Assembly (NCBI GenBank): GCA_945859605.1
Contig: OX243820.1
Location: forward strand, 26,478,077-26,542,076
DNA length: 64,000 nucleotides
Direction: 5' to 3'
Source: Lumbricus rubellus
Taxonomy: Eukaryota; Annelida; Clitellata; Crassiclitellata; Lumbricidae
A model generated the notes under the pieces. That model did not search any database. It saw only the letters and a program-made list of their open reading frames with translations, and had not been told where the DNA came from. Made by a program: the position numbers and the translations under genes. Each line of letters opens with the position of its first letter. The first letter of the stretch is position 1. Below, piece by piece: positions 1,222-56,092 of this stretch.

Positions 1222-4200
1222 CTGTTTAAAATAAATGACGAAATGCGCAACAACAAGCCAGGATGAATGTAATGCAATGCAAGTAAATGTATTCAGAGAT
1301 GATTTATTGTGCATACATAACTAGAAACATGGATAGATAAGACAGCCACCACTATTCTGCTAGGTGTCTCTACTTGTGCATCACAAGTTATAAGCATAGA
1401 ACTTACACAACAGTAATAGGTAATGCAAAGAGCACTGGCAGAGTACAGAACCTGATCCTGGAGTGCCTCCTATAATCCTATTTTAATGGTTGACCACTTC
1501 AAGTGCACCCAATGTACAAAAAAACCTCTAGGTCATTGCGTTGTTGGTGCTGACCGATCTACCAAAAACAGAGTGCCAGTATTATAGATTCAACTACTGT
1601 ACTCACCAATTTGATAACAAATCAAGAGGTTAAGATACATATAGCCGCTTAGGGACCTTGAGCAAGTCCTTCACTTGTAATTGCTCGTGCACTTCAGCAT
1701 GAAACTCCGAGGCAGCGTCCACGCTGTAGTCGGGAGTACCTCTGAGTAGTGAACTTGAAGGAATGTTAAAGAAATTGTGACAAATAAATAAAAACATACA
1801 TAGTGGTACTTACGTCGGGTTTCAGCAGAGCTTTAGTCACGCCTGCAAGAGTGACTGGCTGTTTTTCATCTTTGGCTAAGGCTGGCTGTTTCGGTTTTGG
1901 ACTGTGCAAACTCTGAGTGTCGATATCTTCAAAAAGATCCGTGCTTTGCATAACTCGTCGTTTGCGTGCCCTCCGCTGCACTGGAACCTGTTGAGGACTC
2001 TCCGTATCGTTCTGCTGTTCCGCATGTAAAGAAACAGGTTCCGGCTCACTTGTGACCTGTCCCAATTCATTTGGATCGAGTGTCTTTAACGAATCTTGCG
2101 AAGAAGCAGAATCTGGCAGATCAGTCTTTGCGGCACTGTCTGATGTCGAAGTTTGTTCTTTGTTCGCATACAACACAGTGTTGTTGTCGTCGTCATCATG
2201 ATCATGACCTAAATTTTTTGAAGACTGGCTGGATACAGTGTCACTGCTTGCCATATTACTGATGCGCAATGGGGAGACATTTCTGCTGCCTTTTGAGTCC
2301 GCATTCTTACAGCCTTTCCTTGAATTAGTGCCATCTTTCGTCGTTATTTCTTTTTGTGGATTCACGACGCCCTTGCCTCTTGAACTAGCTGAACTCTGTC
2401 CCTTCTTCCCAGCATCTGAACCTTTTACATTCGTAGCAACACCATTCTCAGTACTTTTAACAGTTTCTCCAACAGTTCGATTTCTGTGGGTAACCTCCTT
2501 GCTATTATGGCTCTCTGGGTTCTTTAAATCTTTAGACGAATGGCTGAGACCATCGCCTTTACTTTTCGCACACTCCAGACGAACATCTCTCGTAGAAATA
2601 CTCTTTGCCTCTTCCTCTGCATCTTCAGCCAAATCAGCGACTAATATATCGCGGCTTACATCGAGCTGACCAGCTTGCTGTGTGCTTCGTTCCTTAGAGT
2701 TCTCAACGGTAACCCCAGTCTCTGCTCCAGCAGGTTTCAGTTTCGAAACCAATTCAGACTCTGTTTTGCTGTTGATCTTTTCTAAAGCAAGCTGACTACC
2801 ACCAGCAGCATCTTTGTTCACCTCACGCGGTAAACCGTCTGTCTTGTCTTCGTCAGCGTCGTCTTTAATTTGCACTTTCGTTTCTGGCTTCGTAACATCG
2901 TATCGAACCGTCTTACTACGTGTAGACGGCTTTCTCCTCTTTCCATTTCCCAACACAAGCATGATGCCGTGCGGACTTTCCAACGCCGCCCTCGCCACGT
3001 TCTCCGAATCTGCCGCGAAAGTCGCCAGGCAGTCGATCGCACTTGTCGACTCGTGGCGCACTCTGCGCTTGCCGGCCGAAGGCTTTTTGTCGACGATGAA
3101 AGAGTCGTCTTTTGAGAACTCGTTTGGCGCCTTCGATCGCTTTTTCGGACAATGCGCTGGAACCGCTGCCGCCTCGTCTTTCGGTTTTGGAATGACGCCC
3201 GAGTCGTTCAGCGAGATGTCGTAGACCGAGAGAAGTCTGTCGGCATTCTCCTTCGCCAACGCAAGTCTCGGAGTTCCCTTGAAGTCCCAAACCGATGATG
3301 CGCCAACATCCCCAGGTTTTGCCGAAGAAGTTGCTGAAGAAGTCGCAGTTGCCTTCGATCTTGGCTTCTGCTGAAGAGGCAAGATGGATCGAGTCTTCGA
3401 CCGAGACTTCTTGGCGACCTCGCTGCCGATAACGTCCTTGCGATCGGCGTTGAAAACGATATTCCCCGGCTTCGATAGATAAGCGGCGCACCTCTTCTTC
3501 ACGTCAACGTCCATCGACTGCTCTGGATTTTCTTCGCTTTCCGACTCGGCTTCCGTCTTCTTACGATTAACGTCTGCAAGACTCTGAACTGCGTCATCAA
3601 AAACGGTTCCTCTCTTTGCATCAGCAACCCTCGATGTAGCAACGCCGCTTCCTGGCAGCTTCAGCCTCGAATGAGCCACTCTTCTACGCTTAACCGCATT
3701 GCTCGTCTGCTCCACGTTATCTTCTGCACCTTTGCCTTCGTCTTCTATCTCAGTGCAGCGCATTGTTTCCTTGTCCTTATCCTTACAGATCTTACCAGTT
3801 GTCTTCACTTTGACTGACTCTGAACAACTCGCCGGCAACAATAGCCTATTGTTTTTCTCATGCAACGCTAACTCGTCCGATCCAACCTGTGGCTTCTCTG
3901 GAGAATGGGGATCGCCGCCACCCTGAACTTTGCCATTTGGGCAACTCTCTCCAACATTATTGACCTCACCATCAGGAGGCTTTCCGATACCGGCAGGTGG
4001 ATCACTAATGGAAATGGCCGTGAAAGATACGCCGGTCTGTTCCATGTCCTCTGCCATCAGAATCGTCACGTTCTTCTCCGCCAACGCACTCTGGCTAGGA
4101 ACATTGTTCGGATGTTCCACAAGCTGAGACGCGACCCGGTTGGACCTGGTATCTCTCCCTTCATCTCCTGGAGGCGGTTCTGCGTCTACAAATACTTCAT

Positions 4201-7200
4201 CTCCGGCTTCCGGACAGCTTTCGAAACTTTCGTCGATCAAAACGGAATCGTCTTCCATCATGATGTCGGGCTCGACGAAACGAATTCCACCGTTGGGAAG
4301 CGCAAAAGTTCCTCTCCGAGATACAGCAGCATTCTCTTTGGAACGTCCAACATCACTTTTGACGTCTGCATCCTGATATCTGATGAGACCTGGCTTGTTC
4401 TGCCTCTTTCTATCTTTTAATTCTGCTGGTCCAGCACTGTCTTTCTTCACCGCCTTGGATTTTAAAAATTTTGAGCTTTTTGCTTGCCCCTTGGTGGCTG
4501 GCACGGTTCTTTTCGACGTTCCCGATGCCGTGCCACTAGCGTTTGGGCTGTCAATTGGCATGAACGTTGGAATATCTCTGCGCGATAAGCTCCTGCTGCG
4601 TCTGTAATCCGACTCCATCGATTCCCGATCGGAGATGTCGGACAAGTAGTCACCACTCTGACGAACCACCGCACGCTCCTCCATGCCTCCTTCCTCTCCC
4701 TCACGAAAACGCTTCACCTTAACCGGTGTTCTAGCGATTTTATCCCTCGTCACAAACTGTCCACTGTTCACCAAGTCGTCAGCGTCTTCAGCCACAGCAA
4801 CGTCTGAAAAACCAGACTTCTGCTGGATCGCATGTGAGATCTTACTCCCAGTCAAACTTTTGCCAGCCTGCTGCGGATGCTTACCCACTTCCACGGAAGC
4901 CTTATTCTTATGAAATTTTCTCCCTTCTTCACAAGACAACTGTGATAAATCCGATTCCACGACAGTCTCCGCTACACAAGAACCCTCTTCACTCTGCGTT
5001 ATGATAGTCTCGTCGACTAACTCCGTTGATCGATTGACCGCACCATTTCCTTCGCCAACCTCTCCATTCTTAGCGAGATTCTGCAAAACGCCCAGCTGTC
5101 CAACCATCTTGGATGAGAGCGTTTCCATCTCCGCAAGAATCGTTTCATCCAGATACAACTGCTCCACATCTTCCTCTTCAGAAACCTCACCAACTTCAGC
5201 TGCCATGGCAACAGATTCCTTGATCCTCGTTGACTCGCCGCTTCCCTGACCGTCCTCCACTCCCTGACCAGTTTTAACGGCAGACGACAGCGCCTCTTGA
5301 AACTGTCCGGACGGGTTCCTTGATCTGCGGAGGATTCGAACGCATTTTCCCGCCGAGTCTCTGTCTGCGTCCGGACTCTCAACCGAAGGATGAAAGATCA
5401 TCGCGTTGCGTCGGTCCCCACGTGACTTTGAGCGTGCGACGCCAGCATCTGCAACCAACGCATAAAGAGAAATAATGAACGAAGATAATTAGTTTTATTA
5501 TCCACTCAAATTCAAACGCGCTTTTGGAAAATGCTTTCTTATCGTGCGAGGTTAAAATATTTGGCATTCATGCAAGGAGCAACAATTTGCGGCAACGTGC
5601 GTAAGAACTGCTTCTTTTACAAAAGTGCTCTGAACAATAGGATTGCAAAATAACTGGTTGGTGGTACGCTCAGCCTGACAATGCTCGTAAACTGACTGTC
5701 AAAACTGAATTGATTTCGACAACTGAAGAAATGCAAAGCAGAAGAAAAATGAAGAACTGTGATGGAGCTTTTGTAGCATAACAACCAGTTAACCATTTAA
5801 TGCCGAGATGGTAGTAAATGGTATGAGAAATCCTATACCCTCCGGCATTAAAGGGTTAATCTATCGAAAAACAACGGACCAACTACATCAAAGCTTCTAC
5901 AAGAAATGACATAATTATAGCTCACCTTTCAACCATTACAGTGATTATATTAACCCTTACACTGGAGTTGAGTGTCAACAGCTTCCATGCAAATATCGTT
6001 AAAATGCCATGTGGGGTGCAGAAGGTTGTGGGTTCGAATACTCCTCATGCCGCAGCATATTAGGGACTCTGAGCAAGTCCTTCACTCGCAATTGCTCATG
6101 TGCTTCAGCATGAAACCCCCAATCAGTGTGCACGTTGTAGTTGGGAGTGCCTTCAAGTAGTAATCTTGAAGGGGAGCTATAAAATGAGCTCATACATACA
6201 TTCATGCATACATACATACATACAAACATACATGAAAATGCTCTCACACAGCGTGCTTATAAAATTATCTGCCTCACAGAACAGTGATCCCCACGCTCTA
6301 TGCCTGCCTTGAATCATATTCATTTCTTCGTGGATGGGAAGACCAAACGACTGCCTGGATCGACTACGCGCCGCCTTGCCTCGAACGCAAACGCCTTGCT
6401 TAGAAGTCTCTTCATCCTCCAGTGGTGCCGGACTATCCTCCATAGATGGCTGGAAGACGGCCATGTTCCGCCTGTCTCGTGAACTGGAACGTCGATAACC
6501 AAACCCTACAAATAAAAATACAACTTCAAACATATTACAGCGTTCACTGTTTAACAGCTTCAGTAAAAGAGCATCCACTGATATTTAAATCAAAAGTTTG
6601 CATAAACATGCAATCAAAAACATACTCTGTAACAATCAGACTGGGGAAGAAAATTACTAAAAAATTCTGTAAAGGACCCCGAAAAAATGAAATTTTGAAA
6701 AAAAATTTGTCAAACGATTGAAACTCTCTCCAAAATGAGCCACAATACCAAATTATGACAATACATAGAGGTACACGGAACCATTGTGAAATCTCCTCAC
6801 AATCAGCGGCACAAATGGCTTTCAAACAGATTAGAAAATTTCTTTAATCAAATAAAACTTACAATTTCAACTTATAAATTCTAAGGCAGACATGGAACTG
6901 TACATCCTAAGTTGTGCATGCCACTGTGTGTGTCGTTGTGTGTACCTCTGTTTTGTCCGCATGTACCTCTGTGTCTGTGCGCATCTCTGTGTACATGTGC
7001 ATGTAATTGTGTGTGTGTTTGAGTGTGTTTGTCTGTGTGCATATTTGTCTGTGCATGCATGTACTTGTGCGTGTGTGAGCGTGCAAGAGCGTGTCTGTGT
7101 GTGCATGCACAATGCACATGAGAATCTGTATATGTGCATGTTCATGTGAGCCTGTGTGTGCTTGTGAGTATGTGAGCGTGCATGTGTGTGTGACTCTGAC

Positions 7201-9114
7201 AGTGTGTAAAAGTCTACCTGGTTCATCGTAGGGAAGGTCTGTTTCACTAGGAACGAGATACGACTGTTCCATTATAATGCTGAGGTTTGAAGCAGCGTCT
7301 ACAGCAGCAGGTAAGCTTGGAACATCGTCACACGCAGCAGGTTCTTTGGTTGGGTTCATACTAGCAATGACATCTTGGTCTTCATCTTCTTCATCGTCGT
7401 CTTGATCGTTACAAGTCGTTGCTGCTGCTGCAGCTGGCACTATCACCCTGGATGGTCCAGCAACAGGGCGGACAACGATGTTGCTGCAAATATATCGAAA
7501 GCACATGTACTATAATAATGCAAAACATGTAGGCTATTATAATGCAACACACGCACCATAATGCAACACATATATGTACTATAATGCAACACATGTACTA
7601 TAATGCAACGAGTACACTAGACTGCAACACGTGTAGTTGTGTACTATCATGCAACATGTGTACTATACCGCAACACATGCACTGTAATGCAACACCTGTA
7701 CTCTTTATAATGCAACACATTTACTACAATGCAACACAAGTACCAAGGACTACATATATCTGCTGAGCACTACAAATACCCCTGACAAAAACCCCTCAAA
7801 GATTTCATCAGCTTGGCCAAACTCTTAAAAACAGTCAACACCCATGACCACATAACAAAAGACCAGACTTCTTTCATAGAAGAGGAATCACACCATGAAA
7901 CGTCATTTCTACTCCAATCCAATCCTAAACTGCTGCAAGAGTTTCTGCAGATGTGAAGGTCACATGCACAGCGTAATGCACATCGTGGGGAGCGGTGGTG
8001 TAGTGGTGGCGTCGTTGCCCTGAAGCCGGAAGGTTCGAATCCACGTCGCTGCGTAAGGACCTTGGGCAAGTCCTTCACTCACAATTGCTCAGCGCTTTGG
8101 CGTGAAACTCCGATGCAGTGTACGCTCTGCATTCGGGAGCGCCTCTGAGTAGAGAGAGCTTGAAGGGGCGCTATAGCAAGTGCACATACAAACAAACAAA
8201 CATCGTAATTGGCTTACCTTACTGGCTGGAGTGAAATCTGTTCATTAACAGCTGGTAACACCAATGTGGAGGCCGCCAGTGGCAAAAGCGGGCCACTCAA
8301 CTTCCGAAACTCGCCATCGGTGCATGCATCCATCGCTTCAGCCAATTGATCAACAGCCAAATGCATCGTAGCACTGACTGCACGCAGGCGCTCCTGGATG
8401 AAACGTTTTGTCTTCTGCAAAAAAAGTTTAGACGACAAACAATCAGCACAAAAACACATGTATACACCTCTGCAAAATGGCAATGAAATATCAGCCTCCA
8501 TCAGACTTTTGTATGTTTGTACGTGCACTTGTTATAGCGCCCCTTCAATCTCTCTACTCAGAGGCGCTCCAGAATGCAGAGTGGACACTGCATCGCAGTT
8601 TCACGCCGAAGCGCTGAGCAATTGTGAGTGAAGGACTTGCCCAAGGCCCTTACGCGGCAAGGTGGATTCGAACCTCGAACCTTCCGGCTCCACGGCAACG
8701 ACGCCACCACTACACCACCGCGCCCCACGGTTTGGGCTGTCTACATACAAATGCTACGAAGAACAGGGCACAATGAGTCGTTCTATTAACTAAGCTCAAG
8801 ATCACCAACCTTTAACAACCAAGTGATGCTTTGCGCTTCAGATGCCAGTGACAAAAAAGGCATTACATGATGCAATTCAAACACAACCTTTGTTCTGATT
8901 CAACAAGAAAAACAACAATAAAATGGGTTAAGCCCATGTCTGGGCTTTTCCCGGCATCCTCTCACTCTCTCAAGGCATTTATTTTCCGTTGGGCGTCTGT
9001 GCTGAAAGCGCCTCCAAACAGTCTATGCTGCGAGAGGCACTCAGTAAATTTGGACACGACACAAGAACTAAACACAGAGTATGCATAATATTAGACATTC
9101 TGAATGAGTCTCCT

Positions 9115-9146
<32 letters not shown>

Positions 9147-10096
9147 TTATATAGCGCCCCTTTAAGGTACCTACTCAGAGGCGCTCCCCAGCGAGATCAA
9201 GCGAAAGTTAAGTCTTGTTTACCTCAGAAAACATCTTTACATTGTTCACTTCGGCTGTCATCATTTGAAGCTCTTCCTTCTGCTTCAGAATGATGGCTTC
9301 TGCCGCACGACATTCGCTCTTCTTTCTCTCCAGAGCCTGTGCCAACGCTCGATTGTTAATCTTTAACGATGTCTTGAAGATCGTTGAATTCACTGGCAAA
9401 TTAACAGAACAGACGCAGCTTATACTTCAACCACAAACAGAAAGAATAATCAACTTCAGAGGAAAAATGTTGATTAAGCAAAATTGAAAAAACGCCAGTC
9501 AAGAACTGAAACATAATGTAAAACAGAAAACAGAAATCTAGGACGTTTACAAAAGAACGACTACAAAAGCAGCAATCAGTGTCTTCTATATATATAGGAC
9601 GGTGTACATTCATTCGTAATCACGAATTTAGCGACTCATTCATTCATATCACATCAAACACACCAGATCACATATATATACCAAATAACGAATAATTAAT
9701 CAGAGCAGAAAGAATGCATCCTCAAACAGAGAGCAGGGACTCAGCTAACAGATCTGAACTTGATGATCAATGGTATCAAGGAGATATGCAATATGTAAGG
9801 AGTTAGTAGTGACTGGAGGTATGAAGGTATTTGTATGTCAAACGGGCCAATTTAAATTTTATCCTGAATCCAACAGGACGTTAACTGATGCAATCACTAC
9901 TACTAATCCTTTATTGGCGAGTACTGAAAATATATTCAGTTAACTAACGGGTGCTGTTTCGAATTGATAAATTGCCCAGTCCGTGATGTCGTTTTCGAAA
10001 TACAGCCTTCAATTTCTTCTTCTTGTCTTTGACAATAGATCCAGCTCTGGGCGTGGCAATGTTGCCTGATGCAACTGGAGGTTCGTCTGTCTCCAT
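691..10096 (-). CDS. SGO: Shugoshin-like centromere cohesion protector, seven exons, about 1,724 aa
   Basis: Exons in transcript order: 10096-9949, 9392-9223, 8414-8218, 7483-7218, 6505-6278, 5448-1814, 1221-691. All junctions are GT-AG with matching phases (1,0,2,1,1,0), giving one 1,725-codon frame. Residues about 50-106 form the N-terminal coiled coil; its core (SLKINNRALAQALERKKSEC) is characteristic of shugoshins. In that family the coil dimerises and recruits PP2A-B56 to protect centromeric cohesin. The central 1,200 residues are acidic, Ser/Lys-rich and low in order, with KEN boxes near residues 708 and 1070, fitting APC/C turnover. A basic C-terminal patch near 1570-1590 (AGNARRDHNSLRLRKN) weakly resembles the family's C-terminal box. 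The protein is longer than vertebrate SGO2. Start: the first ATG of exon 1, in a favourable purine context. Identity is strong at the N-terminus and inferred elsewhere. Confidence 0.8.
1640..1795 (+). mobile_element. 5'-truncated tRNA-SINE in shugoshin-like intron 6
   Basis: It lacks the tRNA head but keeps the family's central body (GCAAGTCCTTCACTTGTAAT and the CTTCAGCATGAAACTCCGA stretch) and the 3' GAGTACCTCTGAGTAG tail, then an A-rich end with AATAAATAAA. Compare the full copies at 7987-8199 and 8531-8727. Confidence 0.8.
1814..5448 (-). CDS. SGO: Shugoshin-like exon 6 (giant exon; RDRRN module copy B)
   Basis: A 3,635-bp exon open throughout. Acceptor GGTTGCAG before 5448 and strong donor GTAAGT after 1814, phase 0. 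It starts with RSKSRGDRRNAMIFHPSVES, homologous to the start of exon 5. The remainder is acidic and Ser/Lys-rich with many SP/TP sites and two KEN motifs. Methionines further 5' in the same frame lie in the intron, so the coding start is not here. Confidence 0.87.
5789..5859. mobile_element. TTAA-bounded palindromic miniature element
   Basis: A 71-bp palindrome with TTAA at both ends. The left arm contains TTTAATGCCGA and the right arm TCCGGCATTAAAGGGTTAA. The copy at 16633-16703 shares almost all of its interior. TTAA target sites are the hallmark of piggyBac-type insertion. Confidence 0.7.
6008..6186 (+). mobile_element. tRNA-SINE, diverged copy in shugoshin-like intron 5
   Basis: It contains a B-box-like GGGTTCGAATACTCC, the body GCAAGTCCTTCACTCGCAAT and the tail GGGAGTGCCTTCAAGTAG ending in GGGGAGCTATAAAA. 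Its A box is degraded. A CATA repeat (6189-6234) follows as the 3' tail. Confidence 0.8.
6278..6505 (-). CDS. SGO: Shugoshin-like exon 5 (duplicated RDRRN module, copy A)
   Basis: Acceptor TTTGTAG before 6505, preferred donor GTGAGG after 6278, end phase 1. It opens with RRSSSRDRRNMAVFQPSMED, which is repeated at the start of exon 6. The donor choice is inferred from phase and consensus, so the last 20 codons are the least certain part of the gene model. Confidence 0.72.
6885..7200. repeat. Degenerate TG/TGTGCA low-complexity tract
   Basis: About 315 bp of TG-rich sequence with interspersed GCATG, inside shugoshin-like intron 4. Cys- or His-rich open frames in it are composition artefacts. 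Confidence 0.85.
7218..7483 (-). CDS. SGO: Shugoshin-like exon 4
   Basis: Acceptor TTTGCAG before 7483 and donor GTAGAC after 7218, end phase 1. It encodes an Ala-rich run followed by an acidic patch (DQDDDEEDEDQD). Low-complexity, probably disordered. Confidence 0.8.
7503..7740. repeat. Minisatellite, about 18-bp unit
   Basis: About a dozen imperfect copies of a unit close to GTACTATAATGCAACACAT, in shugoshin-like intron 3. Units vary in length and composition, so the array is old. Confidence 0.85.
7987..8199 (+). mobile_element. Full-length tRNA-derived SINE
   Basis: Pol III A box TGGTGTAGTGG at 7996-8006 and B box GGTTCGAATCC at 8032-8042, both near consensus. A conserved body follows, then a 3' hairpin with arms AGCGCCTC (8138-8145) and GGGGCGCT (8165-8172), and an AAACAAAC tail. 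A possible 7-bp target duplication ACATCGT lies at 7980-7986 and 8200-8206. The tail matches the LINE at 27344-27690. It lies in shugoshin-like intron 3. Confidence 0.9.
8218..8414 (-). CDS. SGO: Shugoshin-like exon 3
   Basis: Acceptor TTTGCAG before 8414 and donor GTAAGC after 8218, end phase 2. It encodes KTKRFIQERLRAVSATMHLA and a following Leu/Ala-rich stretch, continuing the helical N-terminal region. The split codon AG|C joins exon 4 in frame. Confidence 0.82.
8531..8727 (-). mobile_element. Full-length tRNA-derived SINE, inverted copy
   Basis: Same family as 7987-8199 but on the opposite strand, about 330 bp away. It keeps the A box (reverse of CCACTACACCA), the B box (reverse of GGATTCGAACC), the body and the 3' hairpin. 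The inverted pair could fold back in the pre-mRNA. Confidence 0.9.
9114..9192 (-). mobile_element. LINE/SINE 3' tail with (TTGA)n end
   Basis: Only the 3' hairpin (GAGGCGCTCC and AAAGGGGCGCTATATAAAT read on the minus strand) and a (TTGA)n microsatellite tail are present. This is an extreme 5' truncation of the LINE or SINE family. Confidence 0.75.
9223..9392 (-). CDS. SGO: Shugoshin-like exon 2 (coiled coil)
   Basis: Acceptor CCAG before 9392, donor GTAAAC after 9223, end phase 0. It encodes an uninterrupted heptad region rich in Lys, Glu and Leu that identifies the gene as shugoshin-like. This is the PP2A-binding and dimerisation segment in characterised family members. Confidence 0.88.
9949..10096 (-). 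CDS. SGO: Shugoshin-like exon 1 (start codon)
   Basis: ATG at 10096; the encoded 49 residues end in a basic stretch (KDKKKKLKAVFRKRHH) leading into the coil. The donor is GTTAGT at 9948. It ends in phase 1 (codon C|TG), which joins exon 2 to give STLNSTIFK. An AG at 10111-10112 could make this an internal exon of a longer 5' UTR. Confidence 0.78.
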
Positions 10097-13327: not shown

Positions 13328-13761
13328 GGCCAAAAAAAAATATGTTGTGTTTCCGGTAACAGAGCTAAAAAAAATTGGGTTGGTAGGTCGGAAAATATTT
13401 TTATTTTGTAAAATATTTTTATGCAGTGACTATCCGAAAAAGTATACCCCACTAGTCTTTTTTGCACGCTGAAACAAAGTATGTGTTCTAAGCAAGTATA
13501 AACTGCCTATTTCCCGACTGTCTGCACCTAAAACTGCTCTAGAAACAGTCCTATTAATTTCATTTTGTTGACATCTCTTATGTTATGTCAATACAACTGT
13601 TAAAAAAAATATTTTTTGGAAAAAAATTTAAATTTTTTTTGAAAAAAAAATTTTTTTGAAATTTTTTTTTTTAAAAAAAATTTTGTTACAAAAATATTTG
13701 GGTCGCGGCCGTAAAAATGGGTCGGTCGGGTTACCGGAAACACAACAATTTTTTTTACGCC
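13328..13761. mobile_element. PIF/Harbinger-type MITE, 434 bp
   Basis: Flanked by TTA on both sides (13325-13327, 13762-13764). Terminal inverted repeats start GGCC/GGCG, then A-rich, then GTTGTGTTTCCGGTAAC. The interior is shared with the inverted copy at 24337-24764, including TCGGGAAATAGGCAGTTTAT read on the opposite strand. A 3-bp TWA duplication is diagnostic of PIF/Harbinger. No transposase is encoded. Confidence 0.82.
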
Positions 13762-14913
13762 TTATCAAGTGATTTTGTCTACAGTGCCAGTCTGCTTTTG
13801 AAGTTATTACGGTCCCGAGTTCAATGGGTCTATGTCTTGGTAGGCCATGTTGCAAATTTCTTTTGGAATGATGTTATTAAAAACCTTCAATGATTGCTAG
13901 CATTTTATCGTTCATAGTCTGGCCAGATACATGTTGGAGTTGGCTGTTGATTATTTTAATGAATGACACGTGGGATGCTAGCTGAAATATGATTGGCCGT
14001 AATTTATGTCTTGATTCTCTAGTATCATCTAATGATCCCTGGTGGAAATTGGGTAAACATTAGTGTCTGATTGGAGTAGAGGATGAATCCCACACACTGC
14101 TATTTACAATGTTGGACACTATAAGTACAACCACTACATGGCATATATCAAAGCAAAGGCTGTAATATAACAACATGTGGTCACATTAAAGTATATGGCT
14201 GCAGGCCAGTGTAAATACATGTAAACAGGTAATAAACATTCTGGCACATTTATACTTTGACTAATCACTATGGATGTTGGTCTAGAAACTGACCTGGTCA
14301 ATTGTGTATTGGACAAGACTGAACATGCGCCAAAATCATTCAGTTGTGCTTCAGATGTGTAGGCTGGTTGTGTAATGTATAGGTAATGTAATAACCTCAG
14401 TCTCTATGTTGTTATCACAAGCTGGTGCCATACAAATTTGCAAGTATTTGTGTTTAGCCAAAATTGATGACTGATCGGCATATCATCTGAGAGCTCAAAA
14501 GTCATGCTATTGAAACGTACCGTAGTGTGCATGTACGCTGAAGGGTAATAAAATGGACGTTTACCTCAAATTATCTTTAGATATATGTTATATTACCAGC
14601 GTTTAATAATTATATATATAACTCTGAGAAGCACACTGATTGCTGTTTTTGTGACGTAAAAGCAAATTTTCAGCTTCATGTATTTTAGGCTCGAGTGGAA
14701 ATGAAGTACATGTATAATGCATAATTGCATATATGTTTATATCCAGGCTGATCACCTCAATGCCACCTATGTTTTCCGTGTGTCCGGATTTTGCCTTTAG
14801 AAGCTTATTTTGAGTCATCATACAGCTCACAAACACAAAGTGCTGCTTGTGCTCATGGAAAACATTTATGAATATTTTCGGACGATTAACTTGAGGTTTG
14901 TGTGTAATTTCAG

Positions 14914-15015: not shown

Positions 15016-18000
15016 GTACGCTACTAAAAATAACAGGTATGCTACTGACAATGACAGGTATGCTACTAACAATGACAGGTGTGTGCTACTAACAATTAGA
15101 GGTATACTACTAACAATAGCAGGTACAATGGTACATGTGCTACTAACAATGGCAGGTATGTTACTAACAATAACAGACCTGTGTACAGTGTGTAATTGCT
15201 ACTTACAGTAAGAATTGCGCTACTAGTAATACCAGGTATTCTGCTAACAATGAAAGGTGTGCTAATAACAATAACAGGTATGAGCTGCTACCAATAACAG
15301 GTATGCTACTAACAATAACAGGTATGTTACTAACAATAGCAGGTACGTATGCTACTAACAATAACAAGTATAATGCTACTAACAGTAAGAATTGCGCTGC
15401 TAACAATAACAGGTACGTTGATAACAATAATAGGGACGCTGCTCCACGATCACTGTTGGCTGATAACTATCGATCGACGCAAATCAGTAACGATACCATT
15501 TCTGTTTTCCTGTTTGTGCATTGCATGTTTCTAAATCTTGCTGGTTCTGTTCCGTTATTTTGGTCCATATATTGATTGCTGTTTTTATGTTCATTCTCGT
15601 GTTCGTTTTACGAGTGAATGGTAGTGTTTCTGTCTCATCTGTCTATATGCTTCATTTATTTTTGTTTTTGCAACTTTGTCCCTCCTATTGACAGTCCATT
15701 GCTATTGGACACATTGTGAGTGATACAAGTCTCAATCCAGGTGAGTGGCTTACAAGCAGACACTGCAAGAGGCAGCATTCTGTTGTCTGATGTTGTACTA
15801 GTTAGCTGGAATGTTGTCTGTGTTTCATCTTAGCTGCATATATTTTTTTGTTAGTCTGTTTGGTTGCCCTTGTTTTTATATCGTACTATCCCCGTGCTGA
15901 TTATTGTCTTGCATCCCTCCATTGTCATATCATCCATAATCCATATGTGTTTGTCAGTTAGCTTGCTCTGTTTTATAAATATTTGTTGTTGTTGTTGTTA
16001 TTACTGAGTGAATTGATAAAAGAAATTTTATAAAGGAATTGTCTCTAAATTTTTTCATATAATTATTTTTATCATCTTGTGTGTACTTGTCAAATGGAAT
16101 TTAGATATTCTGTGGTTTGGCCGAGCCGGGGTTGGGAGCACTTCTGAGTTGTCCCCTTGAAGAGGCACTTTACAAATTCATTTAATGGATTAATTAATGA
16201 ATGTGCAAGAGGTACTTATTAACCCTAGCCTCTATGTGAAAGGGTGATAAGAGTCACTGTCATCAGGAATTTAATTCCACAAATTTGTCAGCTCAGTAAC
16301 CACCTACGTTGCCAGATCGGCTATTATGTTTCTGACTACTGGACTGATTGCTGGAGTTCCGATGTTTGGACAGTGGTCTGCACTCAGTGATTGAGCTGTG
16401 TATCAATTGGCATTCAGAAATAATTGCCTGATCAGACAGAAGGGTGTTTGTCTGAAGCATAAATTTCTCAAAGCATATTTCACATTGATAGTGAAGGGCC
16501 ATAGCAGTACCATGCAATAACTGCAACAGTTAACATTACGGCACTGTGAGACTTGCTTAAAATGGGGCTTTTATTACACGTTGATACACGCATGCTTAGC
16601 GCTCTGCAACTTAATTTCTTGGAGTTTATTAAATAACCCTTTTATGCCGAGATGGTAGTAAATGGTATCTGAAATCCTATACCATCCGGCATTAAAGGGT
16701 TAAATCGGTGGAATGTATAGGACGTCGCGTTTGATTTTCTGCACAGAGATCTGCTACAGTGACCAGGACGTGGTCTCGGAGGTGGACCTTGTGTCGTTGA
16801 TTCAGGAACAGCTGCCGCGGTACGTTCTACGTGCCGACGCTGTGACGAACTTTGCCGGTTATGAGAACTCCGACTGGATTATTCAGACGCCGTGTTTGCC
16901 AATAGATGCTGACCTTGACCTTTCGCCTGAGGTCATCGAGGAAACACTCAAGTATTTTGGTAAGGTTTGACTTAACTCTTTACTGACCGAGGGTATAGGA
17001 TTTTCTCCATGCCGTTTACTAGTCACTTTGGTCGGTAAAGGGTTAAGAGTACGTCTCTATGAATTCTGCTTTGTAAAGTGAATGTTTGTAAATGAATTTT
17101 AATCAAATTATATGAAGTTTTGCCAATCTGGATGGCTGTTTTTTACATTTGTGGATATACCATTGTTGAAACTTGCCCGAAGAGATTCAAAGGCTGGGTT
17201 TTTAAATTCCTATCCTTCAAAAATTGAAGTTACTTACCTAAATTCTTTTGCTTTCAATCCCTGTACGCTTTAAAGAATTTCAGCTTAGTTTTTCGGTCAA
17301 GCCTTTGTGTTGCGTGTTTTTTATTAGATCGTCTGTTTGAGATTTCTTTTGCTTACAAACAATTTTGAACAGGTCAATTAGGAGTGGAAAAATGCTGAGC
17401 GACCAAGGATTATTCATCTATTTATTATTCTTTTAATCCAACATCTACTGAAGCAAGAATTATTTTCATGCATCAATTGAGCAGCAATATTTTCATCAAT
17501 CCAACTCTATTGCTTCCATAAATCCAACTTCTAATAAAGCAAGAATTATTTCCATCAATCCAACTTAGAATTTAAGCAACAATATTTTCGTTAATCCAAC
17601 TTCCATATATGCACAAATTTTCGTCGATCCACTTGGAATTTTCTGCTCTGAATTGACCACTGCAAGTTGACCACTATGAATTGACCACTGTATCTTGGCC
17701 TCAACGAATTATCCGGACACCAGTTTCTTGATGTGCCAACAAAGATGGTTGCCTGATGAGGAGTTTATAAGGATTTTGCAAGGGTTTGGCTGTTGTTTTT
17801 ATTTGTTTGTTTGGTCTCTGATATTAGCGGTTCTACAAATGTATATGTCCTCTTTACAAATCTTTGTTTCATACAGCTTACCGTACTTGCTGGGAGATTG
17901 CTGTTTCAAACTAAGTTGCAACTATGTCAATATTGTTGTTGATCAATGTGGAATTTTTTGCTCAACGTGTTGCCTTAAAAATTCAGTCTCTTCACTTCAG

Positions 18001-21000: not shown

Positions 21001-24000
21001 TTGTCGTGAGTTTGCGTTTCCATCTGACATCTCGTTTTCTTGTTTGCAGATAATCGAACTGAAGCACATCGTCTGTGTTAAGACCGCTCTACTTCAAGCG
21101 TATGTTCAGGATTGTGAATCTCCAGACTCTCCTACGTAAGACAACCCTCCTTCGCTAATTAATTATCTTGTCTGTGTTTCAAAAGATCATTGGTTGTCGT
21201 CTCTTTTATATGTGTGCATTTATGTGTCTAGACTCTTAACTCAGTTCCTCGCAAGTGCCTCTCGTCACATGGTTTGCTGGTCCGAGTGCTGTGCTAAGTG
21301 GTGTTAAAGTTTGTTAAAGTAACTGGTTGTCTATGACCTGATAAAGCTCAGGTAATTAAAACTGTATGACAGGGTTGGTTGAGCCACCATTCACAAGAGA
21401 CGTATCAGAATTGTTATACATTGTCAAATTGTGGTTTTTGTGTGTTCGAGTAATGGTTCAGTTGTATTTGAACGACACAGAAAGTTTCATGGGTGTTGCT
21501 TTGCTAATTGGCTGTTGTCACTGTGTTAGTTGCTTTAGAGTGTTGTCAGGTTGATGGAAAACTTTGGAAGGATTTGCTTTGTTGAAAATCTTAAACTGAT
21601 TCACTTGATAGAAGTCTTAACTGGTTAAGGTTTAAAATTTAATCAGTTCTATTTTTTGCCAATTCAATCGTGGACATAAAGGAATGATAAAGTTTTCACT
21701 TATATTTTAGACCATAAATAAATCGACCTTACGGACGTTGACTTCATTCATTTTATAGAAAGACTTGAAATGCAGTCACTTGACTTTATTTCAATTAGAG
21801 CACTCAGTTGCCTGTATTGTATTGTGTCTATAAATTTATGAAGTACCTGTCACAGTGCTCACCAATCAGAGTGCAAAAGACCCAGAGCAAAGAAAGTCGT
21901 TTTTAGGCAGCATAAAGATTTGTTTCGGGTACCAGTTAATAACAAAGAACTTGTCAATGGAAAGCACTGAAAATATATACTCAATGATGAGTTTTGGCCA
22001 AAGCAGTCCTTGATCTTGTCTTGTCTTCAACCATCCTCGATCCGAGGGTTGGTCGCTTCATGAACAAGTTTTCTCCATCTCCTCCTGTCTCTTGTCTCCA
22101 TCAAAGTCCGATCGAAAGATGTTCCCATCCATTCTCCGATGTTGACAACCCATCCCATCCTCGGCCTTCCTCGCGATCTTGCTCCCGAAACATTTCCCTG
22201 TATGATATCATTTTTCCCCTGTATGATATCCTTGATCACGGAACAAGGTATTATGCATGTCACGTGAGTGTAGTCTGTATGTCATCGTAATGACTTAAAA
22301 CGACTAAATGCACATGAGAACTTAAAACTGTGTAACTGATGGAAGGGCTTGAAACTATTAACTTAAAATGGAAAGCGATGAATGTATTCGACAGGAAAGA
22401 TGGCGGGCCAGCGAGTACATCGACGGTTGGCATGGCAGCGCTGCAGAAGAAAGTGAAGTCGCTGGAGGAGGAGAACCTTCTGCTGAAGGTCGAGACCGCT
22501 CAGCTATCGAACGAGACCGACGACTACGAGGAGCGTGAGACCGGTCTCATCAACGACTGCGTTCGACAGTTGACGGAGACGACGGAGCGAATGCAGATGC
22601 TGCAGGATGATCTGTACACGAAGACCGAAGTGAACATCACCCTGCAGGACAAGATGACGCAACTCATGACGCAGATCGTTATGCTGGACAAGAAAATCAA
22701 CAAGGTGAGAGTCGCTAGATGATTGCAATTGGTTATTACGCGACTTAAATTACGACTTTGTGGGGCGCGGAGGTATAGTGGTGGCGTCATTGCCTTGTTG
22801 CTGGAAGGTTCAAGGTTCGAATCCACCTCGCCGCGTAAGGACCTTGGGCAAGTCCTTCACTCGCAATTGCTCGGCGCTTCGGCGTGAAACTCTGATGCAG
22901 TGTCCGCTCTGCATTCGGGAGCGCCTCTGAGTAGATGGAGCTTGATGGGGCGCTATAACAAGTACAAACTAAATGTTTTTGCAAAACAGGAACTTGGGAA
23001 GTTTATAGGTGTGAAGAATTCACCCACTTTTTTCGTATGTAATGCTGTCATTGAAGAAGCTTACATATATTCATTGGCAGCAAGAAATGTTTTATTCATT
23101 CTTCAGTGATCAGAATCTGCTCAATGTGGCTGCCTTCCTTGACCAGCAAACCTGACTGAAGTGCAAAGCTTATCTGTTTTATCTTTCAATGTAGGGGAGT
23201 ACGTTATATATGGACCACTTTATACATAAGAGCGAGTCAAGAGCAATGTTGTCATAATAGCCTATACGTTGTATGTGTGCGATGTATGCAGATGATATGT
23301 TGTCTTATTGTGTGCATCATTGACCTCTTTGCAGATAAGGGTTATCAGTGTTTGGGTATGAAGTTCAACGTAGCAATTTAATCGATGGTGCTAAAGGTCG
23401 ATAGCGCTTGGAAGCACCTATATTATGGTTTTGACTGACTAGATTGCCAGATATGTTAAAAATCAAAACTCTTTTTGACTGCTGGTATACGCTAACTGAG
23501 CCACAGTGAAACAATTGAAAAATTTAGTGTTTTAGTTCTATTCTGTAAAAAAAAAAGAGATTTCAAGTGATTGTTTTTTGAATGCTGGTTGACACTAACT
23601 GAGCCATAGTGAAACAATTGAAAAATTTAATGTTTTAATTATATTCTGTACAAAAAAGACATTTCAAGTGATTGTTTTTTTAATGCTGGTTGACACTAAC
23701 TGAGCCATAGTGAAACAATTAAAATATTTAGTGTTTTAATTATATTTTTTACCAAATCGAAAGAGAAAGTGATTGTTTGTGGGTTGAGGTATTGAGTTGT
23801 ATAGGGATGGACCGGAGGAAAGTTTAGATTTCTTCTCATGATATGATCTCCATTGTTCCAATCCATCCTGACAACTATTGTAGAGCTCTCTGTTGCATTC
23901 TTGACTCTGCTCAGTGCTGTGCTCTAATGTATATGGAGCTATGTAGATGCCATACTTGCAGATCAAGTAGACCGTTTAACTTTCCCTGTGTTGGATCTTT

Positions 24001-27000
24001 CTTTGCTAACAGCATTTGAACTGAGTTGCACGTTTTGTTAAATACTACTATCTCTAAAGCAGTGGTTCTTAGCCAGTGTTCGACCGAACCCTTGGGGTTC
24101 GATGAGCCAGTGCCAGGGGTTCGGCAGAGGTCCTCTGAAATATATACATGTTCAGTGAAAATCATTTGCTATTTAATTTTTATTTTTCGACTTTTATTTA
24201 ATATTATTTTAAAAATTGGTTGCTTACCAGGTCCTACCTTATGAAGTTTAAAGCTGCGCATACTGTTAACATTAGTTATTTCTTACTGCACCACCCAATA
24301 ATTAACACCGGTCGGCAGCATCTTTCTGTGACGTAAGGCGTAAAAAAAATTGTTGTGTTTCCGGTAACCCGACCGACCCATTTTTACGGCCACGACCCAA
24401 ATATTTTTTTAAAAAAATTTTAAAAATTTTTCCCCCAAAAAATGTTTTTCCCCAAACAAAAATTTTAATTTTTTTTCAACAAATATTTTTTTAACATTTG
24501 TATTGACATAACATAAGAGACGTCAACAAAATGAAATTAATAGGACTGTTTCTAGAGCAGTTTTAGGTGCAGACAGTCGGGAAATAGGCAGTTTATACTT
24601 GCTTAGAACACGTACTTTGTTTCAGCATGCAAAAAAGACTAGTGGGGTATACTTTTTCGGATAGTCACTGCATAAAAATATTTTACAAAATAAAAATATT
24701 TTTCGACCTACCTACCCAATTTTTTTTAGCTCTGTTACCGGAAACACAACATTTTTTTTAGGCCTAAGGTATTACCGATATGTAATTTTTCGTTGTTTTT
24801 CTGCAGAAATAGCATCATACGACGTACGCTAAAAGCAACTATTACCCTTTTCTTATATGCTTATACCACAGAGGATGTCGCGAAAAATTATTGTTCAAAC
24901 TTGAGGGGTTCGGTGAGTGGTCATGGATTTCTCGAGGGGTTCGGCTCCCTTGAAAAGGTTAAGAACCAGTGCTCTAAAGGCTAAACTGATGACTCGGTTT
25001 TCCTCAGAATTTTTTTCTCATTCTTCGAAGGCATTTCCTTACCCTTGAGTTTTTCTTGCTAAGAGCACCTCTGAATAGTCATTCTGTTAGAGGTGCTATA
25101 TAAATCTACAGATACGATGCCAAATGAAATTTTAATAGCGCTATTTATTGCCTGATGTTTACCGATGACTTCTGTGACCTTAGAAGGTTTTAGTAATTCT
25201 TGATTGTTTGTTTTGAAGTTGACGAGTGAGAATGGTGAACTGGAAAGACAAGTGTCAATGGGATCGCAAACACAGAGAGAACTCGTTGAAGAGGTTGGTA
25301 GAGGGTTAACCATTTTAAAATTATATGTTGGTACTCTTTGTGTACACACTTCACTTGATAGGTTGCGTTGCAAGGACGTTTGGTCATAACATGACACTCT
25401 GAAATTTCATCTTATATGGAGGATTGGAGGTTGCATTTTAATGAAGTTATTTTCCAAAGCTGAATTTAGGTATGTGAGTGAGTGAGTATGCCCTTTATCT
25501 AGTCAAAATAACTGTGCCTTGGTGTACATGATACAATGGCATTGTTAAAAATAAATCGTCCTTACAGCAAACATCGTAAGCACGAACCAAACTATTTGCA
25601 GCAGGTGATATTGTACTGTGGACACGAATACACTACTGAATGGCTGCAGCTGTGAGCAGTGCTATAGAAATTAGTGATTACATTACATTGCAGTGAATAG
25701 ATAATGGGTTTGATGGGGGGGGGCGAGTAGCAGCTTGGAATACAGTTATGCAGGCAATGTTAGCGCATTATATCTGGGAGTTGCATTATAAGGATGTGTG
25801 CATTATATTGAGAAGTTCCAATGTAGTAATCTTTATTCATTCATTCATTCAGAGAGGTTTTCAGGAGGTCCTAGCTGTTGGTCCATTCCTATTTCAGTCC
25901 ACTTCACATAATAAACTGAGCTGAGTTGTAATATCTAAGACTTTGACATTGGAACTCATGTTATGCAAGACACCCATTCAAGTTTTATGCGTTAAATCAT
26001 TTGGTTCAGAGTTTCTAAACGCAGTTCTCAGTTCTACGTAAGTTGATGATGTATCTTCTTAATGCATGTCTTAGATAATGGACTGGGAAGAGCGTTACGG
26101 CGAGTGCTACGGTTTGCTGCAAGAGGCTCAGGAGGAGATTCGAGCGTTGCAGAAGAAACAGAAGCCGGGCGTCATCCGCTACCACTACACTCACATGTCG
26201 CCATACATTTCCAGCGACTCCCTCGCGCTTGAACTGGAGAACAGCATCCGGAAAAACGTCGACTTTCCAGAGGGATACTCTCCGGAACAGCGCAAGTGAG
26301 CCATTCCTTAAGCACTTGAAAACAGTTTTTTTTAGTCGGGAGCACCTCTGAGTAGTTTCCTTGAGGATGTGCTATGTAAATACTTGTATAAATGATTGAA
26401 TTAGTAATTGCTGTTGAGGTCCTACTGCTTAACCCTTTGCTGACCGTAGTCGGTAAAGGTTTAAATCTAGTCTTGTTTGATTAGCTAAACATGATGTGAT
26501 GACTTCCGTATCATGGAAGGTTTGTCAATGTTGAAAGCACATCAGTTAGTTTGAAAAAAAGGCACTGCTGTTCCTCCCCCGTTTTTTATTAATGTTTTTC
26601 AAGGGGGTTCTTGAACGTTCTTCGCACTGGGAGCAACTCTGATTAGATCGTACTGTAATAGGTGCTTTATTAGTTCGTATATAGAATAGAATAGAAAGAG
26701 AAATGGCAAAGTTATTGCTGCATTGTAGTCTTCTTGAAAGCTGCACGGGTGCCCTTCGTGTTATGAAATGTACATTATTCGTATTTGAAGATATCAATGC
26801 TCGTTTTGATTCTGTCATTTTGAGCGGCTTAAATTTATTGTATAACCATTTTAATTATTAATTAATTTAATAACTTAATTATTATATATTATTATTTTAT
26901 CATTAACTTATTCAATGACTAATGGGCATTACAATCTTTTCTTTAAGGTTGCACAGTTTGCGAGTGATGCGTACGGCGAATGTGGTGAAGAAGACGCGTG

Positions 27001-30000
27001 CAATATCCTCCGCTCCTCCCGGTTGGACGTCGATTCGTGAGAAGCGAGAAGACAGCGACATTTCGACGATGAGTCTCACCGATGATCCTGGTGGATCCGC
27101 AAGTGCCAACAGCACGAGGTCGGTTGAAAGTGATATGCAGGATTTTATTACATACGTCATATCATAAGATAAGATAAGAATATTCTTTAATATACCAATT
27201 GCTATCCGCATTTTGGTGTAAAGACATGGTATAATAAACAAACGTACATAATTTCTATATCCAATCATTCACATTCATATCTGTAGAATTCTTTATGAGC
27301 CAACAATATTGGCAGCATTGTGGGATTTATTTATTTACTGAGAATTTGATATAGCGCTCCTTCAAGGTTACTACTCAGGAGCGCTCCCAGTCCAACCCCG
27401 GTCGAATAAGACAGTCTTGAGAAGAGAAAGAAATGAAGTAGAAGTAGAAAGGCTAATAGGTATTTGACGAAGGATAACAGGTAGCTCATTCCAGGTCGCA
27501 GGGCCAGCCACGGAGAAAGCACGGCGCTGCCTGATTGCAGTCCGTGAGCGTGGAACAATAAGTTCCACTTGTGCAGCTGAGCGGAGAGAGCAGCGGCGTT
27601 GAACAAGCGTGGTCGAGCAACAGAGCTCCTGCAAGTATAAAGGAGCCAAACCCTCAAAGCAGCGCCGGACCAAGACGGAAATTCTGTATGTAATGCAGGA
27701 TGGGATGGTGCAGTGTTGGGTTCAGTGCCTTGGAGCCGGAGGAAGGTTCCAGTTTCGAATCCACCTCAAGTCACCACATAGAGACCCTTAGCAAGTCCTT
27801 CACTCGCAATTGCTCATGTGCTTCGGCGTGAAACTTTGATGCAGTGCTCGTGCTGTAGTCAGGAGCGCCTCTGAGTAGAGAGGGTGAAAGACTCTATAGA
27901 AAATGTGAGAAATAAATAAATTGGTCATACCAAGCCAAGGGTCAAGGAGATTAGAAGTTTCAAGTTACTTAAACTTCACTTTGAAGTGATCCCAGTTGAT
28001 CTACTGCATATGCGAATCCCCATCAAAGACAGCATAAACCATTTGTTCTTAAGCCTGGCGTGTTACCCAACATGATAGATGCTCATTAACATCAAGAATT
28101 ACGTTGATGTGGTTGACCCAGTGGTCTGGAATATCCTTCAATTAGAGCTATGCCTACGTGCTTGGACTCTACCAGTATCCTTCTTTATCAAACTTAGAAA
28201 CTTAAAACTGTCCTTTTTTGGCGTGCTGGAACCGGGAGCGCCTCTGAGTAATTTTTTCTTAAAGGGGTGCTATATAAATTTCCGAATGAATGGACTAATT
28301 ACGTGATGTCATGTTGGGCAAGTGCAGGATTCATTCATTTTGGAGTGCGACTTCAGCTGGTGATACCAAAATGGTTGCTCGTCTCTTTTGTTCTTCAGTC
28401 AGTTATAGGAATTAAATTGACTCGAAATGTTCTGTCCAATGTCCATGTGTTGTGATTATCCGCTAGATGTGAGGACGACAGTGAAGCTGGTTCGATTCGA
28501 CGTTGCCACAGTCCCGAGAGTTACATGTCGACGGGCAGCGGAAGTCTCAGCTCGGACAATCGAGGAGCAATGCGCATCCCAGAGAAACTGCAGATCGTAA
28601 AGCCCATCGAAGGTGATCAATAAGTTACTTCAGACGTGCTTCTGATTGTATTGTATATATGATCATTTATAAAGCGCCTCTCTCAGCAGAAGTCTTTCAG
28701 AAGCGCTCCCAGTGCAATCGACCCTGATTAATGACGAAAGACTACCAGGGAGAAAGGCAGCGAAGTCTAAACAGACAACGAAATGAGGAAAACATTTATA
28801 CTTAGAATCTTGTGCACATACTAATTAGTCTTATCTCGTGATTATGATATCGGTGATCAATCCTGGATAGATGAATTTTTATGTTTATGTGAATTCATTA
28901 TGTCATGCTTAGTGCTCTTTATACAGCTTAGTTTATTAAAGGATATACTTATTTAAACGATACTTATAAATTTCCAGTTTAATTCATTTAAATTTTTTTT
29001 ATAGCACCACTAATATGAAACTTGACAGCACTTGCTTTGCCTGTGATGAGGACCTTCAGATTATCTTATGGCTTATTTGAGTAAATAAACACAGAAAGTC
29101 TGCATTCAAATAATTTACTTATCAGATAAAGACAGTTTCTTGTTAAAGATTTGAAGAGCAGGTGAGAATAGGATGCGTGGTGTAATCAGATGAAGCATAG
29201 TCTCAAAGGCAATTATGCAGAAGTGTTAAGGTCTTGACCACAACTCAAAACTTACCATTTCTCCGTGGCTTTCAAGCACTTGGATACTTAAGCCTTTACC
29301 TCTTGTGACTGACTATCCGTTGCTACCCTGTGTTAGATTCAAATGTAGTTTCTGTGTACAGTGTGTAGTACTATGCGTTAAATTTTGTGTTTAAACGTTG
29401 TGGTCTTTTGTGCTGCAGGTTCGCTGACTCTGCATCAGTGGCAGAGCCTTGCCACTCCTAACCTCGGAGGAATACTCAAGCCTCGTCCTGGAATTCAGAT
29501 CAAAGGTGAAGTGGGTCTCGATGTTTTCGAGGAGGATCCGTACTCTCTAAGCGACTACGAAGAGGATGGTAAGTGGGTGGTTGCAAGTCAGTTCTACTTT
29601 GCAACCTAAAGCTTTACCTTTCATATAGGCCTCCCCCCAACCTAAAGATGATTGCAACCCTGTCTTGGTCTCTCCGAGTTCCTGTATCTTCTTGATACAT
29701 AAAGACAACATTCAGTATTTGTTTTCCGAAGTCTCTCTTACTTCATTGTAATTTTAATGAATTAACGAAGAAAATGTTTTAAATCTAGAAAGTTTAGTCT
29801 TCATTCGAGCTTTCCGCTTCTTGACCTTCACGACGTGACATTTCTCAGGCAGCAGGCCACTGGTATCTCTCTAGCTACCATCCACAATCACCAGAGAACG
29901 CCAGCTGCCAAACTGGAGAAGCGAACAGCGAATGTGATAAACCCCCCTTTACCAGGGTTTTACGTAAAAGTATATCTCAGCAGTAAAACAACGTGTACAA

Positions 30001-44570: not shown

Positions 44571-44627
44571 AGGTTGTAGCTGGTCAGAAAACCCCGTGGA
44601 CTCCTTTCGTCTGGTCAAGATCGGAAA
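44571..44627 (+). promoter_or_regulatory. Splice acceptor and 5' UTR of the DYRK coding exon
   Basis: TTTTATTGAATTTCTTAG ends at 44572. The 55 bp between it and the ATG are open in the coding frame, so a longer N-terminus from an upstream exon cannot be excluded. Confidence 0.6.
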
Positions 44628-55215: not shown

Positions 55216-55345
55216 CAACTATAGGTACATCAGCCACTATAGGTACATCAGCCACTATAGGTACATCAGCAACTATAGGTACATCAGCAACTATAGGCAC
55301 ATATGAACTATAGGTACATCAGCCACTATAGGTACATCAGCAACT
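55216..55345. repeat. Minisatellite, 18-bp unit
   Basis: Seven to eight units of ACTATAGGTACATCAGCA/C, one shortened. Confidence 0.9.
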
Positions 55346-55442
55346 CAATACAGAAATAATAGAGAAACCATATGTTATAACGATAACAGATTATTATTTG
55401 TGCAGAAAACAAGAACTGTTCACTTGGTTTACAACATCAGCA

Positions 55443-56092
55443 ACAATGAACATTAGAAACAGAAACAATGAACATTAGAAACAATGAACATTAGCAACAA
55501 TGAACATTAGCAACAATGAACATTAGAAACAATGAACATTAGAAACAATGAACATTAGCAACAATGAACATTAGCAACAATGAACATTAGCAACAATGAA
55601 CATTAGCAACAATGAACATTAGCAACAATGAACATTAGAAACAATGAACATTAGAAACAATGAACATTAGAAACAATGAACATTAGCAACAATGAACATT
55701 AGAAACAATGAACATTAGAAACAATGAACATTAGAAACAATGAACATTAGCAACAATGAACATTAGCAACAATGAACATTAGCAACAATGAACATTAGAA
55801 ACAATGAACATTAGAAACAATGAACATTAGAAACAATGAACATTAGCAACAATGAACATTAGAAACAATGAACATTAGAAACAATGAACATTAGAAACAA
55901 TGAACATTAGAAACAATGAACATTAGCAACAATGAACATTAGAAACAATGAACATTAGAAACAATGAACATTAGAAACAATGAACATTAGCAACAATGAA
56001 CATTAGAAACAATGAACATTAGAAACAATGAACATTAGCAACAATGAACATTAGAAACAATGAAAATTAGCAACAATGAACATTAGAAACAA
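55443..56092. repeat. Minisatellite, 16-bp unit, about 40 copies, higher-order structure
   Basis: Unit AACAATGAACATTAGM, where M is A or C. Apart from the edges the copies are otherwise nearly identical, so the array is young or homogenised. The A/C variants repeat in a ten-unit, 160-bp pattern. Confidence 0.95.

Follow-up and report, generated by a model that had tools for sequence, protein, structure and literature searches.

A short hairpin straddles the stop codon of ORF2 in five LINE families of Lumbricus rubellus, here called LINE-B, F-Y, F-K, F-Q and F-V. Its 5' arm encodes the protein end GSA(S/P)E and the stop codon lies in its loop, so that the tail does not lie within the 3' UTR. 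By analogy with LINE/SINE pairs described elsewhere, this tail very probably serves a group of related L2-like LINE families as their 3' recognition hairpin, and likewise a SINE that acquired it from one of these families. The LINE whose 3' end first drew attention belongs to what we take, from reverse transcriptase motifs, to be an L2-like family. The window is the whole stretch of DNA under analysis, 64,000 nucleotides in length, and the genome searched comprised 787 Mb in 368 contigs.

Hairpin-bearing tails in the window

The initial annotation had described a hairpin shared by the 3' ends of a LINE and a SINE, with TGAGTAG or a variant of it in most loops. The loops agree with this description, and the letters of the arms are exactly as it gave them for the LINE at 27353-27360 and 27378-27385, for a SINE copy at 8138-8145 and 8165-8172, and for the tail with arms at 25064-25071 and 25090-25097 (AGCACCTC / GAGGTGCT). 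The LINE and SINE tails are homologous and the hairpin is common to both, as in LINE/SINE pairs of the stringent type. On the minus strand, the LINE hairpin at 27353-27385 reads AGCGCTCC, a 17-nt loop TGAGTAGTAACCTTGAA and then GGAGCGCT, and it folds at z -3.5. The extent given for the LINE had to be corrected: the interval 27344-28285, taken for one LINE, holds three elements instead, namely the 3' end of a minus-strand LINE, a decayed plus-strand SINE and the 3' end of a second LINE on the plus strand (Table 1), and a single LINE across it is ruled out.

Table 1. LINE and SINE features of the window, with position, strand and distinguishing marks.
Feature	Position	Strand	Marks
Tail of older SINE copy	1732..1768	+	
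Tail of older SINE copy	6144..6184	+	
SINE copy	7987..8197	+	arms 8138-8145 and 8165-8172; ends set by eye from alignment
SINE copy	8528..8728	-	hairpin 8528-8570
LINE-type tail, no LINE body recognised	9145..9188	-	AGCGCCTC / GGGGCGCT, then ATATAAAT and ATTG repeats
LINE-type tail, both CpGs changed to CA	16134..16177	+	mismatches C·A at pair 3 and A·C at pair 4
SINE copy	22760..22962	+	hairpin 22917-22962
Older tail, A-T at pair 4	25063..25105	+	AGCACCTC / GAGGTGCT; TGAATAG loop
Tail, A-T at pair 4	26338..26381	+	C·T mismatch at pair 6
Older tail, A-T at pair 4	26629..26674	+	mismatches at pairs 5 and 8
LINE-B 3' tail	27345..27388	-	arms 27378-27385 and 27353-27360; ORF2 end S-A-P-E; TAG TAA in loop; then ATATCAAA
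LINE-B ORF2 C-terminal fragment, 5'-truncated copy	27389..27679	-	translation and genome protein search
Older SINE copy, 3' part	27774..27904	+	repeat family D11; tail match 27862-27891; 5' arm intact, 3' arm destroyed
3' end of another LINE family	28088..28281	+	hairpin 28234-28279, AGCGCCTC / GGGGTGCT
Tail, every pair kept	28665..28710	-	AGCGCTTC / GAGGCGCT; T-G at pair 6

Another old lineage of tails, with a sequence of about (A)GCGCTACTGAAT...GGCGCT followed by (A/T)TA(G/T)AAAT, is related to the same LINE/SINE hairpin and occurs at 25633-25671 of the window and, each time on the minus strand, at L015:6798-6840, L022:8519-8559 and L011:3711-3744. The window also holds other features. A 70-nt repeat is present in three copies (5790-5859, 16634-16703 and 30350-30419, the latter two 93% and 60% identical to the first), and by eye its ends are near-inverted (TAACC..TTTAATGCCG / CCGGCATTAAAGGGTTAA), like those of a small DNA-transposon MITE. 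An inverted pair of 324 nt and 93% identity (13335-13658 / 24436-24759) lies beside an 88-nt pair of 97% identity (13677-13764 / 24334-24421), and the two pairs are probably two copies of another dispersed repeat. A tandem array with a 16-bp period extends from 55301-56064 and beyond, with 41 register copies reported. As for host genes, an exon at about 26079-26298 reads by eye like a TRAK/Milton-type adaptor, and the translation of the ORF at 44580-46166 reads like a DYRK-type kinase.

Abundance of the tails in the genome

A fuzzy pattern of the tail matched at 8 places on the two strands of the window and at none in three mononucleotide shuffles, which were searched on one strand only. The sequence model of the tail, built from 10 window copies, found 52 tails at E<=1 in 276,171 bases, weak and partial matches included, or about one per 7 kb of sampled genome. 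Twenty of them lie in the window (10 of these having built the model), 29 come from 20 stretches of 10 kb spaced evenly along contigs C1 and C2, 15 of which contained at least one, and the remaining 3 stand in loci fetched for an earlier hairpin pattern.

Genome-wide, a stem-free pattern of the SINE type gave 4,646 exact matches and a LINE-type pattern 4,103, each with 0 in the reversed control. The LINE-type pattern consists of TGGG, N8, TGAGTAG, a gap and TATATAAAT, with the 5' arm free and the 3' arm free except for its last T. The samples used below are the first 100 matches listed of each type, all on contig C1; they have the heptamer TGAGTAG and its flanks fixed and are biased to young copies, and conservation of the loop is not readable from them.

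At gathering thresholds Rfam gave no match on the window. One DNA pattern of the hairpin found no relatives in a collection of genome contigs and none in a collection of viral contigs; 33 pattern stretches of viral contigs, searched for the LINE by protein, contained no relative; and a 16-base sequence of the tail does not occur as literal text in the open-access literature searched.

The stop codon inside the hairpin

Upstream of the LINE hairpin of the window, the ORF2 C-terminus on the minus strand translates as ...VAGPATWNELPVILRQ...LLKTVLFDRGWTGSAPE and is followed by TAG TAA, so the frame continues across the hairpin's 5' arm and ends within the loop, where GAGTAG reads Glu-stop. The conserved loop motif TGAGTAG is thus also a coding end, which gives its conservation a second possible cause that the initial annotation had missed. 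This LINE-B end, with 102 residues as the query, gave 23,660 first-look candidates in the genome, the best 150 of which scored 95-100% identical; identity over all 102 residues was found in 20 rows among those 150, including the window's own copy (G000:C10:26505450-26505755, window 27374-27679). A tblastn search without the last 9 residues gave a best identity of 98% for the LINE-B fragment and merged hits at 27401-27787. When 20 LINE-B copies were taken at roughly even steps down the match list, all of them matching the query to its SAPE end, TAG TAA followed SAPE in 20 of 20 and the stem was perfect in 18. About 33 nt separate the stop codon of LINE-B from its (TAAA)n run, and in one copy, L026, a frame of 1051 residues without interruption contains Exo_endo_phos (endonuclease) and RVT_1 (reverse transcriptase) domains.

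The other families were recognised among 40 LINE tails that we picked from the 100 listed of 4,103 and fetched with their upstream DNA. An LKT-like ORF2 end (at most 2 substitutions) was present in 30 of the 40, and 26 of these 30 stand in the frame that finishes ...GSASE-TAG in the loop; the other four matches are in the TGA frame, three of them spurious by reading and the fourth (L084) a frame-shifted copy. The protein end and the microsatellite distinguish four families, F-Y (LKTYYFSCGWTGSASE) with 10 copies, F-K with 6, F-Q with 5 and F-V with 3; another 16 of the 40 tails are unclassified. The short tandem repeat 3' of the hairpin is TAAA in LINE-B, AATG in F-Y, F-K and F-V, and ATTG in F-Q. 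A tblastn search with LINE C-termini lacking the last 9 residues yielded 7 hits in 264 kb, and the tail followed within 30 nt and with at most one change in 5 of them, as a weak match with 5 changes in one, and not at all in one. Two database searches gave 32 homologous proteins, of which 7 have the GSA(S/P)E end (P0001, P0002, P0004 and P0022-P0025); some of these seven could derive from L. rubellus itself or a close relative. The other 25 end otherwise, several of them being truncated or more distant.

The reading frame need not be the thing conserved. The hairpin might be an RNA element kept irrespective of frame, if some LINEs read the arm as RERL or QERL followed by TGA and not as SASE followed by TAG. 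A tail of the same genome (L006:330-373, minus strand) has an open frame ending SGRERL, and the homologue P0005, known as protein only, ends KCQERL. These are the only two cases, however; a copy-specific frameshift in L006 is possible, and the TAG frame prevails at the LINE ends with the LKT-like motif. We hold this explanation to be possible but doubtful.

The SINE and possible LINE partners

Seven aligned SINE copies share the tail, and their consensus contains the motifs GGTGGTGTAGTGG and GGTTCGAATCC, which resemble the A and B boxes of pol III; ARAGORN called no tRNA over the window. The SINE's 3' part has its homologue in a LINE from this genome, with the same hairpin and loop. Just before and into the hairpin, the older SINE copies L007:4698 and L013:8307 read CGCGCTGTAGTCGGGAGCGCC, and other old copies nearly so, which resembles the coding end of the LINE at L017:7798, CGTGCTGAAGTCGGGAGCACC (also given as CGTGCTGAAGTCGGGAG). 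From this resemblance it appears that the SINE acquired, together with the hairpin, a few final codons of a LINE.

LINE-B was considered as the certain partner of the SINE and was dropped, since in local alignments of 8 SINE copies the LINE at L017:7798 scored above the better LINE-B copy in 5 cases, level with it in 2 and below it in 1. The 3' flank of young SINEs (ATAACAAG, CAAA-type repeats) had no match among the LINE tails read, LINE-B and L017 included.

Pairing and change in the stem

The initial annotation had considered the changes in the stem as compensatory and as always keeping pairing. The 52 tails contradict the latter: pair 4 is G-C in 24, A-T in 6 and G-T in 4 and is broken in 7 of 41, and 11 of 47 cells are unpaired at pair 6. 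Pairing is also broken within the window, by C·T at pair 6 in the tail at 26338-26381 and at pairs 5 and 8 in that at 26629-26674. The change from G-C to A-T at position 4, in particular, is rejected as evidence of compensation. The stem has one CpG in each arm, at pairs 3-4, and with CA in one arm and TG in the other an apparent A-T at pair 4 may arise without selection; A-C (6) is as frequent there as A-T (6) in the 52 tails. The association at pair 4 has a Fisher P of 0.04 in these tails, in a test that leaves age uncontrolled. Tails with transitions at both CpGs fall into the classes TG/TG (3), TG/CA (2), CA/TG (1) and CA/CA (1) among the 100 LINE tails listed. At the same time, depletion of CpG in the window is only mild (observed/expected 0.79), and the effect of CpG decay may thus be modest.

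A covariation check on the 52 tails gave a divided answer. The score was 0.168 against 0.134 (sd 0.010) in shuffled alignments and fell to 0.012-0.072 when the partner was slid by 1-3 columns; paired cells made up 85.9% against 83.5%, and for each of these two values 1 shuffle in 500 was as high. Double changes were seen in 13 cells against 8.3 (13 of 500 shuffles), whereas pairs changed on both sides were not raised (3 against 2.8; 297 of 500). With whole arms shuffled in the 34 complete rows of the 52, excess pairing had a P of 0.007, which rose to 0.06 without the four LINE-B rows and to 0.15 without two further older rows as well, so that the signal rests on few lineages.

In LINE-B, pairs 6 and 7 are T-A and C-G, replacing C-G and T-A/T-G, and these are not CpG positions. 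Clean compensation is found in this lineage only, or perhaps also in an older one with A-T at pair 4. Strict selection for pairing on the stem in every lineage, as the initial annotation implied, would account for the raised score, paired cells and double-change cells, for the two LINE-B pairs and for the copy at 25064, whose stem pairs perfectly and has A-T at pair 4. It is nevertheless very improbable, given that pairs changed on both sides are no more frequent than in shuffles, that the signal comes from few lineages and not from within families, and that F-Y carries a mismatch at pair 6.

In F-Y, AGCGCCTC goes with GAAGCGCT or GAAGTGCT in 8 of 10 fetched copies, leaving an uncompensated C·A at pair 6. 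The combination of AGCGCCTC with GAAGCGCT recurs in 13 of the 100 LINE tails listed (of 4,103), and the C·A form has therefore been amplified. That pair 6 was lost in F-Y is suggested by two related copies which carry GAGGCGCT. The folds of two F-Y tails, at -11.0 kcal/mol (z 0.3) and -11.3 (z 0.3), are no better than those of shuffled sequence, and neither is that of the L015 tail (z 0.8), so that the stem may matter less than supposed. For one copy each, the values are -17.6 kcal/mol in F-K (z -1.8), -19.9 in F-V (z -1.8) and -18.6 in F-Q (z -2.4).

Within families the two arms change independently. Among the 100 SINE tails listed (of 4,646), 755 of 800 cells are paired against 755.3 after shuffling (P 0.71); the 5' arm is changed in 20 tails, the 3' arm in 36 and both in 7, with 7.2 expected, and among the changed 5' arms the CpG transition AGTGCCTC is the most frequent (6 of the 20). 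For the LINE, the 39 decayed rows among the 100 listed (of 4,103), being those unlike the three common arm combinations, have 261 of 312 cells paired against 261.6 (P 0.65). Double changes in the 100 LINE tails exceed expectation (18 against 8.1), yet they are not better paired, and their surplus matches what age differences would give.

Such independence, together with the A-C forms at pair 4, the prominence of a CpG transition in the SINE arm, the amplification of F-Y despite its C·A and the P of only 0.15 once LINE-B and the two older rows are removed, would be expected if there were no structural selection at all, the hairpin being kept by recent common descent and, in the LINEs, by its role in encoding the final residues of ORF2, with neutral changes that are partly CpG decay. 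However, the 3' arm lies outside the ORF and pairing is still kept in F-K, F-V, F-Q and LINE-B, and the SINE has no ORF and has kept the arm nonetheless. Against it stand, moreover, the double changes of LINE-B at two adjacent non-CpG pairs, the fall of the covariation score when the partner slides and the mild depletion of CpG, while decay within families cannot test selection on the source copies. We regard the absence of structural selection as unlikely. Of the initial interpretation, the homologous hairpin shared by LINE and SINE is supported, and the stem is kept in four of the five young LINE families read and in the SINE; the argument from compensatory changes is not supported. Pairing of the stem is probably favoured, though losses at pair 6 are tolerated, and most of the "compensatory" changes between genomic copies look like post-insertion decay, partly at the two CpGs.

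Discussion

LINE and SINE tails that share a hairpin have long been known, and some fish SINE tails resemble ...GCGCTATATAAAT. If the recognition hairpin described here works as in zebrafish L2, a LINE-encoded protein would bind the folded hairpin on LINE or SINE RNA, and target-primed reverse transcription would start from the short repeat after it. According to PMC4176376, ZfL2-1 and ZfL2-2 do not retrotranspose without the stem-loop, and disruption of the stem abolishes retrotransposition of ZfL2-2; stems can be swapped (one swap with about half the rate), the loop is specific, and the region between EN and RT binds the stem-loop. The exchangeable stem fits in part with the variation at pairs 6-7 between the families found here.

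Regarding known systems, our elements are like ZfL2-1/ZfL2-2 and the eel UnaL2/UnaSINE pair in having a short 3' hairpin, then a short repeat, and an ORF2 with EN and RT, and, as in the eel pair, a SINE shares the LINE tail (PMC4176376 and PMC3747384). The zebrafish L2 tail is placed within the 3' UTR in PMC4176376, whereas in the present elements, as read from the DNA sequence alone, the hairpin is wrapped around the stop codon and has a coding 5' arm. For the L1/SINE pair of monocots, Ohshima 2013 (PMC3747384) reports a shared 3' hairpin with compensatory stem mutations; that LINE is of the plant L1 clade, whereas ours is L2-like and shows clean compensation in one lineage only. The pairs of invertebrates and fishes listed there also include SINE2-8_SP with L2-1_SP/CR1-3_SP in sea urchin and V-SINEs with CR1-type LINEs, and going by that listing they resemble the present case in joining a tRNA-type SINE, as ours may be, to an L2/CR1-type LINE tail. 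A recognition hairpin straddling the stop codon of its own LINE was not found in text searches of open-access literature or in sections of PMC4176376, PMC3747384, PMC4316615 and PMC11203168.

One might go further and suppose that a terminating ribosome and the folded hairpin are mutually exclusive on LINE RNA. The hairpin would then capture new ORF2 protein only after the last ribosome leaves, which would make it a switch from translation to retrotransposition and a source of cis-preference, and the untranslated SINE RNA, free of this conflict, would be the better substrate. This proposal is speculative and we think it quite unlikely to be right.

What is new is that related LINE families of one genome have a probable recognition hairpin that at the same time forms the end of their protein-coding sequence. 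If the RERL and QERL ends of L006 and P0005 are true, there would be conservation at the RNA level across reading frames. For repeat hairpins that contain CpG, the caution follows that apparent compensation needs a control for decay. The natural stem variants C-G, T-A and unpaired C·A have all been amplified and allow one to ask how much pairing a LINE enzyme needs, and the stop codon inside the hairpin lets one ask whether there is competition between translation and reverse transcription for one RNA.
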